Shown here one piece after another: positions 51,800 to 56,957 of a stretch of DNA of 64,000 bases (position 1 is its first letter; each line of letters opens with the position of its first letter). The notes below the pieces were generated by a model. The model searched no databases, had not been told where the DNA came from, and worked only from the letters and a program-made list of their open reading frames with translations. Made by a program: the position numbers and the translations under genes. The stretch is from a bacterium (GTDB taxonomy: Bacteria > Elusimicrobiota > Elusimicrobia > Elusimicrobiales > UBA9959): contig JAJYJH010000001.1 in assembly GCA_021789695.1 (NCBI GenBank), positions 1 through 64,000 on the forward strand. The letters are read 5' to 3'.

Positions 51800-53884
51800 C
51801 TAGAATAGTTCCCTTTCTTTGTAGGCCGTAATCAGCTCATCGAGGAAGAACGCGTTGGCCATCAGTGACAGAAAGAAAGCTATGAAGATTATACCCGCGG
51901 ACTCCGCCAAAGCGCTGCGTATCCTCGCTCCGAGGAATTTGTAGTACTCCAGTCTGGCTTGGCTCTGCAGGACCAGGCGCGACGGAGGTTTTATCTCCTC
52001 CGGCTTTCCCGGAAGCTTCGGCGGGAGTGGGCGCCCTTCCTCGTCGTAGAGCGCCTGCGACTGCGCCTCCGCCAGCGCCTGCTGGTACTGGGCCATGTTC
52101 AGCATGTTCTGCCGGCTGGCCTGGGCTTGCTGGTCGAGGGTCCTCCGCTCCGCTATCCTTTCCACCTGCGGGCTGGTGAACATCGCGAACATGGACAGGT
52201 AGGCTGCCAGGAAGAACAGCTGCGGATTGAAGAACAGAGAGAATTGCTTCTTCGTGGCTGCTGCTGCCGAGCCGAGCAGGGCGAATACCGCCCCCGCTGC
52301 CAGCCACCCCCTGTCCGGAATCACCTGTATGCCGCCCTTGAAGTAATAGTACGCGAGGAGCATTCCCAGCAGATAGGCCGCCAGCGCGGATATCTTCAGC
52401 CCCCAGTTCTTGAAGACCGCTTTGGAGGCCGCCAGGTACAGGAATAGAGCGTAGACGATAAGGTTGGCGGAGGAAAATGCATGGTTAAGCCCTATCTGCA
52501 AGGCTAAAAAACCTTTGGCAATCGTGTCGGCTCCGGCGGGCGCGGGGATATAGACTCCGCCGGAATAGGCCGTCGCGGCGGCGGCGGCGGCGAAGAAAGC
52601 ATAGCCCAGGGTGAACTTGAGCGGCTTCTGCCAGAGAGCCCAGGCGTAGAGCGCCGCTCCAGCGGCGAACAGCAGTCCAGCCGATGCCGGGTCGGAAACG
52701 AAAGGAGAGGTCAGCGACCCCCTTACCGTCCCCGAAGCGCCCGAGAGCACGAAGCAGCCGGTGCCGGCCATCGTGAGGGCCAGATGGACGGCGGCTTTCA
52801 ACCCGTTGTGTAGAGCTGCCAGCTGAAGCGCCGGCTTGGCCGCCTGCGGCGGCTCGGTGATGTCCGGCCGGCGCTGCGCGGCCGCCGGCGGAGGAGGCGG
52901 CGCCTCCCACTGCCGTACGGCCGGCGGGGCCGGGGTGTGCGGTTGCGAGCTTTCAAGGGAGGCTTCTTGACTAGGGGCATGGCTCCGCGCGACGCGCGCG
53001 GTGAGTTCGGCGAGATCGAAGTTGGATTCCGTCTGGCGCGGTTCGTCCTCGCCGTCGGGATGTTTTGAAAGCTCCGCTATCACCTCTCCGGCCGTCTGGT
53101 ATCGTTCCTCCGGTTTTTTGCGCATCAGCCGCTCTATGACCCGTGCGGCCCACAACGGCACATCGGGGTTCACCAGGACGATGTTCGGCAGCGGCTCGCT
53201 TATATGCTTGTGGATGACCTCTATGGAACTCTTACCGTCGAAAGGATATTTGGCGGTCAGGATGTAGAAGTAAGTCGCGCCGGCGGCATAGAGGTCCGCT
53301 CTGGCGTCCACCTGCCCGGCCAGTCCCTGCTCCGGCGACATGAAGTAGGCGGTGCCCACCATCTCCCCCGCCATCGTCAACTGCTTCTCTTCGGTGATGC
53401 TGCGGGCGAGGCCGAAGTCCACTATGCGCGGCACGTTGTCGAGGCCTACCAGGATATTGGCCGGCTTGATATCGCGGTGTATGACGGACTTGGCATGCGC
53501 GTGGGCCAGGGCCTCCAAGACTCCGGTCATGATATCGGTCGCCTGCTTTACCGGCAGAGGGCCCTTTTCGTTGACCAGTTCCTGCAGGCTCTTGCCCTCC
53601 ACGTAGGACATCACGATGAAGTAGGAGCCGTTCTCCTGTCCGAAGTTGTAGACGTGCACTATGTTGGGATGCTCCAGTTTGGCCGCCGAGCGGGCCTCGC
53701 GCAGGAAAAATTCTATATTGCGCTGTTCCCTTGCCAGGTCCGGAGAGAGGAGCTTGACGCAGACGAACTTGTCCAGCGCCTCGTGCCTGGCCTTGTAGAC
53801 GGAGCCCATGCCGCCCTGACCGAGCTTGCTGATTATCTTGCACCCGGCGAAAACGGAGCCGGCTATGTCTGGTTCTGTTTCCAT
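51800..53884 (-). CDS. Hanks-type Ser/Thr kinase with C-terminal membrane domain
   Basis: The kinase domain is N-terminal (about 12-275): GQGGMGSVYKA loop, catalytic lysine in VCVKLLS, HRDIKPANILV near 136, and DFGLAR. A Pro/Ala-rich linker (about 285-350) follows, then a C-terminal half with about eight hydrophobic helices (about 365-690), whose role is unknown. The order is the reverse of the usual receptor kinase. It lies seven bases before the CHASE2 kinase gene, so both are co-transcribed. Confidence 0.92.
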   Translation of the reverse strand: METEPDIAGSVFAGCKIISKLGQGGMGSVYKARHEALDKFVCVKLLSPDLAREQRNIEFFLREARSAAKLEHPNIVHVYNFGQENGSYFIVMSYVEGKSLQELVNEKGPLPVKQATDIMTGVLEALAHAHAKSVIHRDIKPANILVGLDNVPRIVDFGLARSITEEKQLTMAGEMVGTAYFMSPEQGLAGQVDARADLYAAGATYFYILTAKYPFDGKSSIEVIHKHISEPLPNIVLVNPDVPLWAARVIERLMRKKPEERYQTAGEVIAELSKHPDGEDEPRQTESNFDLAELTARVARSHAPSQEASLESSQPHTPAPPAVRQWEAPPPPPAAAQRRPDITEPPQAAKPALQLAALHNGLKAAVHLALTMAGTGCFVLSGASGTVRGSLTSPFVSDPASAGLLFAAGAALYAWALWQKPLKFTLGYAFFAAAAAATAYSGGVYIPAPAGADTIAKGFLALQIGLNHAFSSANLIVYALFLYLAASKAVFKNWGLKISALAAYLLGMLLAYYYFKGGIQVIPDRGWLAAGAVFALLGSAAAATKKQFSLFFNPQLFFLAAYLSMFAMFTSPQVERIAERRTLDQQAQASRQNMLNMAQYQQALAEAQSQALYDEEGRPLPPKLPGKPEEIKPPSRLVLQSQARLEYYKFLGARIRSALAESAGIIFIAFFLSLMANAFFLDELITAYKERELF

Positions 53885-53887
53885 GTC

Positions 53888-54820
53888 CTAGATGCGCCTG
53901 TCCCTGACGAAGATGCTGCCCCGCCTGTCCGAAATCTCCTTGCCGTAGCGCTTGAGCTCTGCCGCGCTCTCCACGATCTTGGCGTAGGGCTTCTGCGTGC
54001 GCGGTGCGACTATCGCCACGGTCAGCGACATAATCGGGAAGTCTTTGGTCTTGTTCTGGCGGTCCATTGTGGTTATGAAGCCGCGCCTGCGGTCCTCCTC
54101 GCTGTAGAAATCCAGTATGAACCGGTCGAACTCCTCGGTTACGGCCTTGGCCACCGGTTCGGCGGCATCGGGCGCCGTTATCAGCACGAAGTCGTCCCCG
54201 CCGACGTGCCCCACGAAGTAGTCCTGGCCGGCCAGGGCCTTCGCCTTTTCGGCCAGCAGCAGCGCGATTCTTATTATCACCTCGTCACCCTTGGCGTAGC
54301 CGTAGACGTCGTTGTAGGCCTTGAAATTGTCTGCGTCTATGTAGGAGAACGCGAACTGTTCCCCCGAGTCTATGCGCCGCTGCACCTCCTCTTCTATGGC
54401 AGGGCTGCCCGGGAGATGGGTCAGCGGGTTGAGAGAGGTGTCCGCGCTCTTGCGCTTCAGGATGCGGTTTATGCGTGCCCGCAGTTCGCGCACGTCGAAA
54501 GGCTTGGTGATGAAATCGTCCGCGCCCAGCTCTATCGTCTTGACTCGCGCGTCAACTTCCGAGACGCCGCTGAGTATGACCACCGGGATATCCCGCGTAT
54601 CCGGAGCTTCTCGTATCCGCTTGCAGAGCGCGTAGCCGTCGATGCCGGGCATGCGCAAGTCCAGCAGTATGAGGTCCGGCTTCTCGTTCTTGAGCAACGC
54701 CAGTACCTCTTCGCCGTGGTAAAGCGTTACCACCTGGTAGTTGTACTTTTTAAGAACGGCGGATACCAATAGTCCCACGTTGGGATCGTCGTCGACAACC
54801 AGTATCTTCTTGCCTGCCAA
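53888..54820 (-). CDS. Response regulator with GGDEF-type output domain
   Basis: The receiver domain (1-120) has the acidic pocket DDD at 10-12, phospho-acceptor Asp54 (LILLDLRMPG) and a Lys in ITKPFD. The GGDEF domain (about 130-305) carries HVGGDDF in place of GGDEF near residue 208, a variant found in many sequences, so cyclic-di-GMP synthesis is possible but uncertain. The start is a TTG with a GGGGG Shine-Dalgarno. It is the first gene of the signalling operon. Confidence 0.85.
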   Translation of the reverse strand: MAGKKILVVDDDPNVGLLVSAVLKKYNYQVVTLYHGEEVLALLKNEKPDLILLDLRMPGIDGYALCKRIREAPDTRDIPVVILSGVSEVDARVKTIELGADDFITKPFDVRELRARINRILKRKSADTSLNPLTHLPGSPAIEEEVQRRIDSGEQFAFSYIDADNFKAYNDVYGYAKGDEVIIRIALLLAEKAKALAGQDYFVGHVGGDDFVLITAPDAAEPVAKAVTEEFDRFILDFYSEEDRRRGFITTMDRQNKTKDFPIMSLTVAIVAPRTQKPYAKIVESAAELKRYGKEISDRRGSIFVRDRRI

Positions 54821-54936
54821 GATTCCCCCAGGGAGAAAATAAAATTATTCAGGAGCGCAAGCCCCTCTTATAGAGAATTATAAAAAATAATATATTGGAA
54901 CGCAATGCGTCCGGAGGACCAGGAGGATCTGGGGGC

Positions 54937-54964
54937 TTGCCTGTTCACGCTTTTATGCTATAAT
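54937..54964 (+). promoter_or_regulatory. Promoter of the HTH-receiver gene
   Basis: An extended -10 (TGCTATAAT, hexamer at 54959-54964) lies 16 bases after TTGCCT (54937-54942). It predicts +1 near 54971 and a leader of about 42 bases with a GGAGA Shine-Dalgarno. Confidence 0.65.
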
Positions 54965-55012
54965 GTTAAAAAGAGCAAAACTCTTAAAAGTCGCAACACC
55001 GGAGACGCTTCC

Positions 55013-55591
55013 ATGAGACAAAAAATCTTTAGTACCTTCGAAGTGGCCAAGATGCTCGAACTTTCCCCCGGGACAGTCGCCAACTGGGTCGACGCGGGCA
55101 GGCTCAAGGCATTCACTACGCTCGGCGGGCACCGGAGGATAAAAATGGAGGACCTTGGCGCTTTTCTCAAGGAGAACGGCATTCCGGTGCCCAAGGAACT
55201 TTCCGATCGCGGGGAGTCTCCTCGCAAGATCCTTATCGTGGAGGACGACACCAGGTTCCTGAAGCTTATGGAGAAGTATTTCCGCACTTTACGCAAGGAC
55301 TGGGAAGTATTCCTGGCCGCGGACGGTTTCCAGGCGGGGTCGCTGGTGGGCAGCGAAAGGCCGGAAGTGGTGCTGCTGGACATCATGCTGCCGGATATAA
55401 ACGGGTTTAAGGTGTGCGAGATAATAAAGGCCAGCAACAGGCGCACTCTCGTGATAGCTATGACCGGCTATGACTCCGAGGATATAAAGACCAAGATACT
55501 CGCCGCCGGAGCGGATGATTATTTCGTCAAGCCGTTCAAGTTCGAGAAGCTGGTTAAGCGCATAGAGGCCTGGGACGGATCTAAAGGGTAG
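55013..55591 (+). CDS. HTH (excisionase/MerR-like) plus receiver-domain regulator
   Basis: The 192-residue protein has an N-terminal helix-turn-helix of the excisionase/MerR type (STFEVAKMLELSPGTVANWV and GGHRRIKMEDLGAFLKENG, residues 7-56). A receiver domain (about 70-188) follows, with acidic residues EDD at 77-79, phospho-acceptor Asp123 (VVLLDIMLPD) and a Lys in FVKPF. DNA-binding before receiver is the reverse of the usual response regulator. The ATG at 55013 is chosen for its fit to the domain; an in-frame ATG at 54905 lies before the promoter. It is divergent from the signalling operon and has no adjacent sensor kinase. Confidence 0.86.
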   Translation: MRQKIFSTFEVAKMLELSPGTVANWVDAGRLKAFTTLGGHRRIKMEDLGAFLKENGIPVPKELSDRGESPRKILIVEDDTRFLKLMEKYFRTLRKDWEVFLAADGFQAGSLVGSERPEVVLLDIMLPDINGFKVCEIIKASNRRTLVIAMTGYDSEDIKTKILAAGADDYFVKPFKFEKLVKRIEAWDGSKG

Positions 55592-55615
55592 GGTTCAGGG
55601 GGGCGTGGAGTACCT

Positions 55616-55647
55616 GGCCCGCGTTCCTTAGGAACGCGGGCCTTTTT
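55616..55647 (+). terminator. Intrinsic terminator
   Basis: GGCCCGCGTTCC and GGAACGCGGGCC form a 12-base stem with a TTA loop, followed by TTTTT, after the HTH-receiver gene. Confidence 0.88.
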
Positions 55648-55671
55648 ATGGGGACTCGCCGAACTTGCGAA

Positions 55672-55687
55672 TGTGACTTATGTTACA
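55672..55687. promoter_or_regulatory. CRP/FNR-family operator candidate
   Basis: TGTGA-CTTATG-TTACA differs from the TGTGA-N6-TCACA consensus at one position. It is centred about 51 bases upstream of the predicted start of the small RNA, nine bases before the -35. Confidence 0.5.
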
Positions 55688-55695
55688 TAAAGGAC

Positions 55696-55724
55696 TTGAC
55701 AACGGTCAGGGGCGGTGCTAAAAT
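55696..55724 (+). promoter_or_regulatory. Near-consensus sigma-70-type promoter of the small RNA
   Basis: TTGACA (55696-55701) and TAAAAT (55719-55724) are separated by exactly 17 bases. Transcription is predicted to start at about 55730. Confidence 0.75.
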
Positions 55725-55729
55725 TAAAA

Positions 55730-55784
55730 GGTCAGGGCTGCCTCCCTCACCCTACCCCCCAAAAGGCAGCCCTGCCTTTTTTTT
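55730..55784 (+). ncRNA. Candidate small hairpin RNA with C-rich loop
   Basis: Directly after the promoter, CAGGGCTGCC (55733-55742) pairs perfectly with GGCAGCCCTG (55765-55774), followed by CC and eight T. The loop is 22 bases and pyrimidine/C-rich (55743-55764, CCCTCACCCTACCCCCC inside). The whole transcript would be about 55 nt. It has no credible open reading frame. A stand-alone small RNA that pairs with G-rich ribosome-binding sites, or a transcription attenuator for the TPR gene at 55842, are the two readings. Confidence 0.6.
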
Positions 55785-55841
55785 GTGCCAATGTATGCTT
55801 TCCTCCCGAGCCCCGGCCGTTCCCGTTGACGGCAGGGAAAT

Positions 55842-56957
55842 ATGACAAGCAATCCCTCCACGGCCGGCGCCAGGCCCCCGAGGATCGGTCTGCTGCTGGG
55901 GCTGGGCGTCTCAGCGGCTCTGGTCCTTGCTTTTATATATTCCGCGCTGGAAAGGGCGGCCTTGGCCGAGGCGCGGAGCCTTGACTGGAGCGATGTGGCG
56001 GCTATGGCCGCCTCCCGAGGTCCGGCCGGGGCGGAGGCCGTCCTGAGGGGGAGGCTCCGCGCGCATCCGCGCGACGCCCTGCTTTACTATTACTTGGCCA
56101 GGCTGAATTACGAGAACGGCCGTGCGGAGCCGGCGCTCCGGGAGGCCGACGAGGCCATATCGCTGGGTTACGCCCAGGAGGGGGCCCATCTTCTGAAGGC
56201 CATGGTCCGCGGAAGGCTGATGGGGGACCGCGCGGCGGAGCGCGCTTTGGCGAGCAAGGCCCTGGTCTACGACCCCGCTTACGACGAGGCCTACCTGGTG
56301 CGTGCCGAGGCCGAGTACTGGCTCAAAGATTACGGCTCCTGCGTTTCTGACGCCGGCGTGTTCGTGCGCATGTCCCCCGAAGTTACCGACGGTTATGAGC
56401 TCTCGCAGTTGTGCCTGGAGGGAATGCGCGATTACGACGGGGCAGAAAAAGCCGCGCTGACTATACTGAAGTTGCAGCCCCGCAATCACGCGGCGCTGTG
56501 GCGGCTCGGACGGCTCTGCGCTATCCGGGGCCGTTACGAGGAGGCCGTGCAACGGTTCTCGGCTGCTATACGGCTAAGCGGCGGACGGTCGCGCTACTAC
56601 CAGGACCGTTCCGCGGCGTGCGCCTCGCTCGGCGATTTTTCTTGCGCGGCCAGGGACATGGAGTCCGCGGCAGGTCCAGGGCTTCAGAAGACCGCTACGT
56701 ATTACCTTCTCCTCGGGGAGGCCCTCTACCGCGTCGGGGACTTGAAGCGGGCCCGCGAAGCGGCCGAAAAAGCGGTTTCGCTGGCCCCTGAGAATTACAC
56801 CGCCTACGATCTGAGGGGGCGCTTGCGGGCAGAGGCGGGAGACTTGGGCGGAGCCGGGCTGGACTTTGGCAAGGCGGAGAGGATGGCCCCGGGGAAGGAC
56901 CCGGAACTGCCTTTCCTGCTGAAACCCTCCTCCGGGCCTTCTAAGAGGAAGAGATAA
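55842..56957 (+). CDS. Membrane-anchored TPR-repeat protein
   Basis: This 371-residue protein has one N-terminal membrane helix (about 15-35) and then a continuous array of tetratricopeptide repeats (for example YYYLARLNYENGRAEPALRE and AALWRLGRLCAIRGRYEEAV). It probably acts as a scaffold at the membrane. The role is unknown; co-orientation with the DUF2723 gene, 20 bases downstream, suggests a shared pathway. The start has no clear Shine-Dalgarno. Confidence 0.75.
   Translation: MTSNPSTAGARPPRIGLLLGLGVSAALVLAFIYSALERAALAEARSLDWSDVAAMAASRGPAGAEAVLRGRLRAHPRDALLYYYLARLNYENGRAEPALREADEAISLGYAQEGAHLLKAMVRGRLMGDRAAERALASKALVYDPAYDEAYLVRAEAEYWLKDYGSCVSDAGVFVRMSPEVTDGYELSQLCLEGMRDYDGAEKAALTILKLQPRNHAALWRLGRLCAIRGRYEEAVQRFSAAIRLSGGRSRYYQDRSAACASLGDFSCAARDMESAAGPGLQKTATYYLLLGEALYRVGDLKRAREAAEKAVSLAPENYTAYDLRGRLRAEAGDLGGAGLDFGKAERMAPGKDPELPFLLKPSSGPSKRKR

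Follow-up and report, generated by a model that had tools for sequence, protein, structure and literature searches.

The window, a stretch of 64,000 nt from a bacterium of the Elusimicrobiota (contig JAJYJH010000001.1, positions 1 to 64,000), contains what comparison of genome sequences strongly supports as a free-standing small-RNA gene. The preliminary description of this DNA had read it so, and the reading is borne out by a promoter, transcript and terminator of its own that are conserved while their context and orientation change. We consider it probable that the product is a trans-acting sRNA of about 54 nt whose C-run acts on G-run Shine-Dalgarno (SD) sites of a GGDEF gene and an FNR-like regulator gene, and whose promoter is under an FNR-type box. 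A single hairpin would serve as both terminator and pairing device of this RNA, and the C5-6 run of its loop would pair with G-run SDs, blocking ribosome binding without Hfq. The best-supported targets would be a regulator of FNR type present throughout the family and the adjacent REC-GGDEF gene, along with the kinase gene that follows the latter. The FNR-type box over the -35 would control the sRNA promoter, with an upstream CRP/NtcA-type activator site in part of the family, and the FNR gene as a target would close a feedback loop between redox sensor and RNA. The features concerned are as follows.

51800-53884, minus strand: Ser/Thr protein kinase gene (Pfam Pkinase), after a 3-nt gap behind the GGDEF gene
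53888-54820, minus strand: REC-GGDEF gene (Pfam Response_reg and GGDEF), proposed target; TTG start kept in most genomes
54825-54829, minus strand: GGGGG SD of the REC-GGDEF gene, to which the C-run of the sRNA is proposed to pair
55672-55687, no strand assigned: upstream palindrome TGTGACTTATGTTACA, TGTGA-N6-TTACA, centred at about -51.5
55696-55709, no strand assigned: FNR-type box TTGACAACGGTCAG, TTGAC-N4-GTCAR, overlapping the -35 and centred at about -28.5
55696-55724, plus strand: promoter, with TTGACA at 55696-55701, N17 and an extended -10, TGcTAAAAT
55731-55784, plus strand: sRNA of about 54 nt, predicted +1 at G55731, where the near-invariant block begins; covariance-model matches span exactly this stretch
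55733-55743, plus strand: 5' arm of the 11-bp stem, which doubles as that of the terminator
55744-55763, plus strand: C-rich 20-nt loop, the only loop, CCCUCACCCUACCCCCCAAA as RNA and CCCTCACCCTACCCCCCAAA as DNA
55764-55774, plus strand: 3' arm of the stem
55775-55784, plus strand: CC and T8 (55777-55784), tail of the intrinsic terminator
55842-56957, plus strand: TPR gene, a neighbour outside the proposed mechanism, downstream in only part of the family

The TGTGA-N6-TTACA palindrome, the TTGACA-N17-TAAAAT promoter and the run of eight T are all where the preliminary description had placed them, with TAAAAT at 55719-55724 and TG one base 5' of this -10 hexamer. The hairpin is in its place too; its 11 bp and 20-nt loop become the 10 bp and 22 nt given earlier if the closing U-A pair is left open, and it starts 2 nt after the predicted +1. 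The RNA forms one hairpin with one dominant fold, which is far more stable than those of dinucleotide shuffles (z of -5.7 and -5.3; 0 of 200 shuffles as stable). Rfam 15 returned no match up to E=1 for 55500-56000 and none at gathering cut-offs for the RNA, in keeping with the earlier remark that no described RNA family was recognised.

Within the family, the transcript is nearly invariant and can be written as GTCAGGGCTGCCTCCCTCACC-variable-CCCCCC-AAWA-GGCAGCCCTGCCTTTT. Its loop consists of a conserved CCCUCACC and a run of five to six C with a variable CUA between them, and differs in length by one to three nt among genomes; a coding reading frame in the transcript is ruled out by this varying length, since a conserved frame would not survive it. 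Across 29 distinct sequences, 99.1% of the stem cells are paired. Covariation in relatives, which the preliminary description had proposed as a check, is present and modest, being confined to the outermost pair, where C-G becomes U-A in 4 of the 29 and G-C in 1 of the 29 while the inner pairs, 8 of which the pattern used in searching had fixed, are constant; it is small because the stem sequence itself hardly changes. The inner stem and the loop thus seem to be constrained in sequence as well as in pairing. The promoter is no less regular: all 43 promoters whose two hexamers were matched have a spacer of exactly 17 nt and a TG ahead of the -10, the family -10 consensus is TGnTAGAAT, and a TCA within the spacer is kept in 93-100% of these 43 promoters while the rest of the spacer varies. 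The recurrence of this TCA indicates that the -35 sits inside TTGAC-N4-GTCAA.

By blastn, 21 of the 24 other genomes in the genus have the element, as against 0 of 16 from another family of the same order. A pattern scan of 84,980 species, with a pattern that fixed the inner 8 bp of the stem, returned 52 stretches; six matches outside the Elusimicrobia were set aside as chance, having no promoter or terminator similarity, and the others carry the element and are labelled Elusimicrobia, except four records labelled only as 'bacterium'. A covariance search of the hairpin in related genomes, as envisaged earlier, was made with a model built from 29 sequences and run on 341 genomes of the phylum. 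Matches with E<1e-15 occur in about 48 of the 341, nearly always in single copy, and all but one lie in the window's own family, across ten genera of it. The exception, G112, belongs to another family of the same order and has the RNA with a different promoter that is devoid of the promoter boxes. Weaker matches are mostly the palindromic reverse strand of the element. A phage origin was also considered and rejected, there being no match in viral contigs. Only one genome (G159, contig C50) has a second full copy, which lacks the promoter, and two genomes have extra nucleotides between the -10 and the hairpin (about 50 in G157 and about 11 in G156). Assembly breaks fall at or beside the hairpin in G023, G133 and G145, so in some genomes the RNA may be missing only from the assembly.

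The preliminary description had proposed that the C-rich loop pairs with ribosome sites, and this idea now finds specific support in the conserved G-run SDs of two genes. Of 50 family genomes, 49 have at least 5 G in the SD of the GGDEF gene and the remaining one has 4 G; the criterion was first noticed in this gene and then tested, so this count is not an independent test. Neighbouring genes have no G-run SD of at least 5 G: none was seen for the TPR gene in 24 genomes, for a PMT-like gene in 18 or for the kinase gene in 31. The FNR-like regulator, by contrast with cytochrome bd genes in the same genomes, repeats the pattern of the GGDEF gene. Every one of the 34 genomes tested, G112 and 33 from the family, has an orthologue or homologue of it; among 29 resolved starts, 27 have an SD with at least 5 G and two have GGGG. 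SDs of at least 5 G occur for cydA in about 1 of 20 genomes and for cydB in two or three of 20, most of the sites there being ordinary SDs; cydA and cydB had been candidates on account of a G-run in G000 that proved not to be conserved, and they became negative controls. Among FNR homologues from 13 genomes of other families that have no strong match to the RNA, 0 of 13 have a G-run SD. The FNR gene of G112, where the RNA is present, has an SD without a G-run.

The same two genes emerge when the genomes are surveyed more broadly. Gene samples covered about 44% of G000 (883 genes) and about 36% of the AT-rich G131 (609 genes). G-run SDs stand before 63 of the 883 sampled genes of G000, the FNR-like regulator included, and in G131 G5 SDs stand before only 11 of 609, FNR and GGDEF among them. 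In 227 reciprocal-best pairs between the two genomes, a G5 SD is common to 3, with 0.39 expected (p=0.003), and these are the FNR-like regulator, the GGDEF gene and a FecR-domain protein. The FecR-domain gene has a G5 SD in 10 of 23 orthologues, and we regard it as a weaker, partial candidate target. A second REC-GGDEF gene of G000 (stretch L182, reverse strand, start 8426 in reverse-complement coordinate) has GGTAGGGGGGGGTATG at its start, of which 8 bp are complementary to the sRNA loop; relatives in G007 and G151 likewise carry SDs with G-runs.

Prediction of targets among ribosome-binding sites from pairing energy, as the preliminary description had advised, gave weak evidence. Ordered by plain duplex energy, the 609 sampled genes of G131 have FNR at rank 7 and GGDEF at 21, and with the C-run half of the loop alone at 3 and 14; 14 of 200 shuffled loops rank both targets equally high. 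Both genes are thus placed high in the AT-rich genome, but they are weak in the GC-rich G000, at rank 78 for FNR and 151 for GGDEF of 883, and there loop shuffles of equal composition score about as well as the real loop. Energy-based prediction in G000, being no better than for shuffled loops, was therefore dropped in favour of conservation. An exact 11-nt complement of CCUCCCUCACC was also sought as a target, and in G000 it occurs only at the sRNA gene itself.

We infer with good support that the C-run pairs with the G-runs at the SDs of the FNR-like regulator gene and the GGDEF gene and, with weaker support, that pairing leads to repression, that there is feedback with FNR and that the upstream site has a role. 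If the RNA were instead a trans-acting sRNA with other real targets, the G-run SDs would be kept for another reason, such as weak, regulated initiation at TTG. This is unlikely, though it has points in its favour: G146 keeps both G-run SDs (FNR and GGDEF) and no sRNA was found in it, as is likewise the case in G141 (60% complete); no partner is assigned to the CCCUCACC half of the loop; and SD motifs are conserved in general, ordinary ones included, if less strongly (2.4-fold for GGAGG). Against this stand the confinement of FNR G-run SDs to the RNA-bearing family, with 0 of 13 outside it, and the way in which FNR and GGDEF stand out in the AT-rich G131.

The RNA could also be a decoy, its C-rich loop capturing a protein, such as Rho or a cold-shock protein, and not mRNAs. 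Proteins of these kinds favour C-rich or pyrimidine-rich single strands, the loop is rich in pyrimidines, and the near-invariance of the stem and of both loop halves goes beyond the needs of a 6-nt seed. A decoy would, however, leave unexplained the conserved G-run SDs on FNR and GGDEF and their absence from the FNR homologues of genomes without the RNA, and we think it an improbable account of this gene, on a par with that of other targets.

The 'CRP-like' site of the preliminary description was right as a class and is here refined to a CRP/NtcA type: the family consensus of the upstream palindrome is TGTAACTTNNGTTACA, i.e. TGTA-N8-TACA. At 28 of the 29 matched loci it lies 7-8 nt 5' of the -35; it is missing or degenerate in about a dozen loci and has been lost in several genera. 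The whole genome has its exact form at a single place, and in a search for a regulon near-matches in 1.08 Mb of G000 were no commoner than those to shuffled palindromes. It is likely the operator of a CRP/NtcA-type regulator, by analogy with known sites. The CRP-like protein of G000, encoded at C4:95727-96416, has 229 aa and a recognition helix, TRVPVCR, which we take to resemble that of NtcA. Compared genome by genome, without a tree, the presence of cydA tends to accompany an upstream TGTAAC-N4-GTTACA in the sRNA promoter; genomes without the palindrome are mostly without cydA, G156 and G018 being exceptions.

The second box, the FNR-type TTGAC-N4-GTCAA over the -35, is more widely conserved than the upstream palindrome. 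TTGAC-N4-nTCA or a close variant is present at 43 of 49 loci, and several of the others are cut by contig ends. The FNR-like protein matches the CRP/FNR families, with FNR-type regulators found among solved structures, and has a CxxCx5C motif and one more Cys, all four being invariant in 30 or 31 sequences. Among 31 orthologues of the FNR-like gene, 6 have an FNR-type box with at most 1 mismatch in their own promoter, and no such box lies upstream of cydA; the protein most likely to read the box over the sRNA -35 would therefore be the FNR-like one, with repression as the expected effect. This overlap of the box with the -35 suggests a feedback loop. A string close to ATAGTTTAGCAAATG lies upstream of the FNR-like genes of g1 and g15 and of cydA in two genomes, and is possibly another operator.

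The neighbourhood of the gene bears on a further explanation, put forward as the alternative in the preliminary description, that the element attenuates transcription of the TPR gene, confirmed at 55842-56957, or is its 5' leader. In the window's genus the RNA is directed toward the TPR gene, and the TPR start codon lies 10-60 nt from the terminator in most g1 genomes, as an attenuator would have it. The element is flanked by the same blocks of genes, but in genera g8 and g9 it is turned round and faces the GGDEF gene, a flip relative to its neighbours that argues against its being an attenuator for TPR. In g14-g16, among others, the element is not directly followed by the TPR gene, and G011 retains the element with no adjacent TPR gene. 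With the hairpin beginning 2 nt after the predicted +1, there is moreover no leader for an antiterminator or other alternative fold, and an invariant loop would be needless. The attenuator is therefore very improbable. What the RNA adjoins family-wide is the REC-GGDEF gene, followed by the Ser/Thr kinase gene, which is possibly co-regulated with the GGDEF gene. At 54905-55591 on the plus strand, an unusual regulator, in which a receiver domain comes after an excisionase/MerR-like HTH, adjoins the sRNA in most of the genus. That the element is an ordinary intrinsic terminator or a chance promoter-like string, as its hairpin and T-tail taken by themselves might allow, is refuted almost beyond doubt by its conservation across the family at near-identity, with a promoter of exact spacing of its own and a conserved loop.

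The trans-acting sRNA that we favour has counterparts in other phyla. The 6C-type RNA B11 of Mycobacterium abscessus has two C-rich loops, either of which represses a gene, eccB4, with a six-G tract in its 5' UTR; this tract was tested with mutated loops (PMC10470900). The RNA described here is like 6C of M. tuberculosis and B11, both from Actinobacteria, in having a C-rich hairpin loop and in its proposed action on a G-tract with no known RNA chaperone. Unlike them, it has a single hairpin, which is its terminator, in place of two C-rich loops, and it differs in phylum, promoter, targets and the lack of an Rfam match. NfeR1 of Sinorhizobium meliloti (alpha-r14/cuckoo) is repressed by NtrC and silences ntrBC, forming a mixed double-negative loop (PMC10746234). 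The same loop logic is proposed here with an FNR-type regulator, and NfeR1 has an ultraconserved anti-SD motif in its loops; whereas alpha-r14 RNAs have three hairpins, CCUCCUCCC loops and highly differing stems, this RNA has one hairpin, a near-invariant stem and a loop of CCCUCACC and C6. We place it outside 6C and alpha-r14 because the structural tests of membership fail for both; judged by its sequence, it would resemble 6C/B11 and NfeR1 in mode of action while being a member of neither.

Small RNAs regulated by redox state or oxygen are represented by FnrS, under FNR in enterobacteria, and by RoxS/RsaE, under ResDE in Firmicutes, where RoxS lowers ResDE expression (PMC8139620). The present RNA, with a candidate FNR-type box at its promoter in nearly all loci, may be like these in its control and is unlike them in sequence, which is unrelated. 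Enterobacterial FnrS works with Hfq, and here Hfq was not detected in 26 genomes of relatives, in a search whose positive controls matched in 5 of 14 known genomes.

Taken to its full extent, the proposal is of a minimal, Hfq-free terminator-loop sRNA in feedback with a Cys-bearing FNR-type regulator, tying redox sensing to the GGDEF/kinase operon family-wide, the SDs of its targets having become G-runs for the RNA to read; in this complete form it is tentative, possible rather than probable. By the titles and abstracts of the papers found to mention both Elusimicrobiota and sRNAs, this would be the first conserved regulatory sRNA known from free-living Elusimicrobiota. Its design is unusually small, in that the loop of the terminator would itself be the regulator. 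If the pairing is true, then C-loop RNAs that read G-run ribosome sites without Hfq would have arisen by convergent evolution, and the conserved G-run SDs in the AT-rich members of the family would offer a route to its targets.
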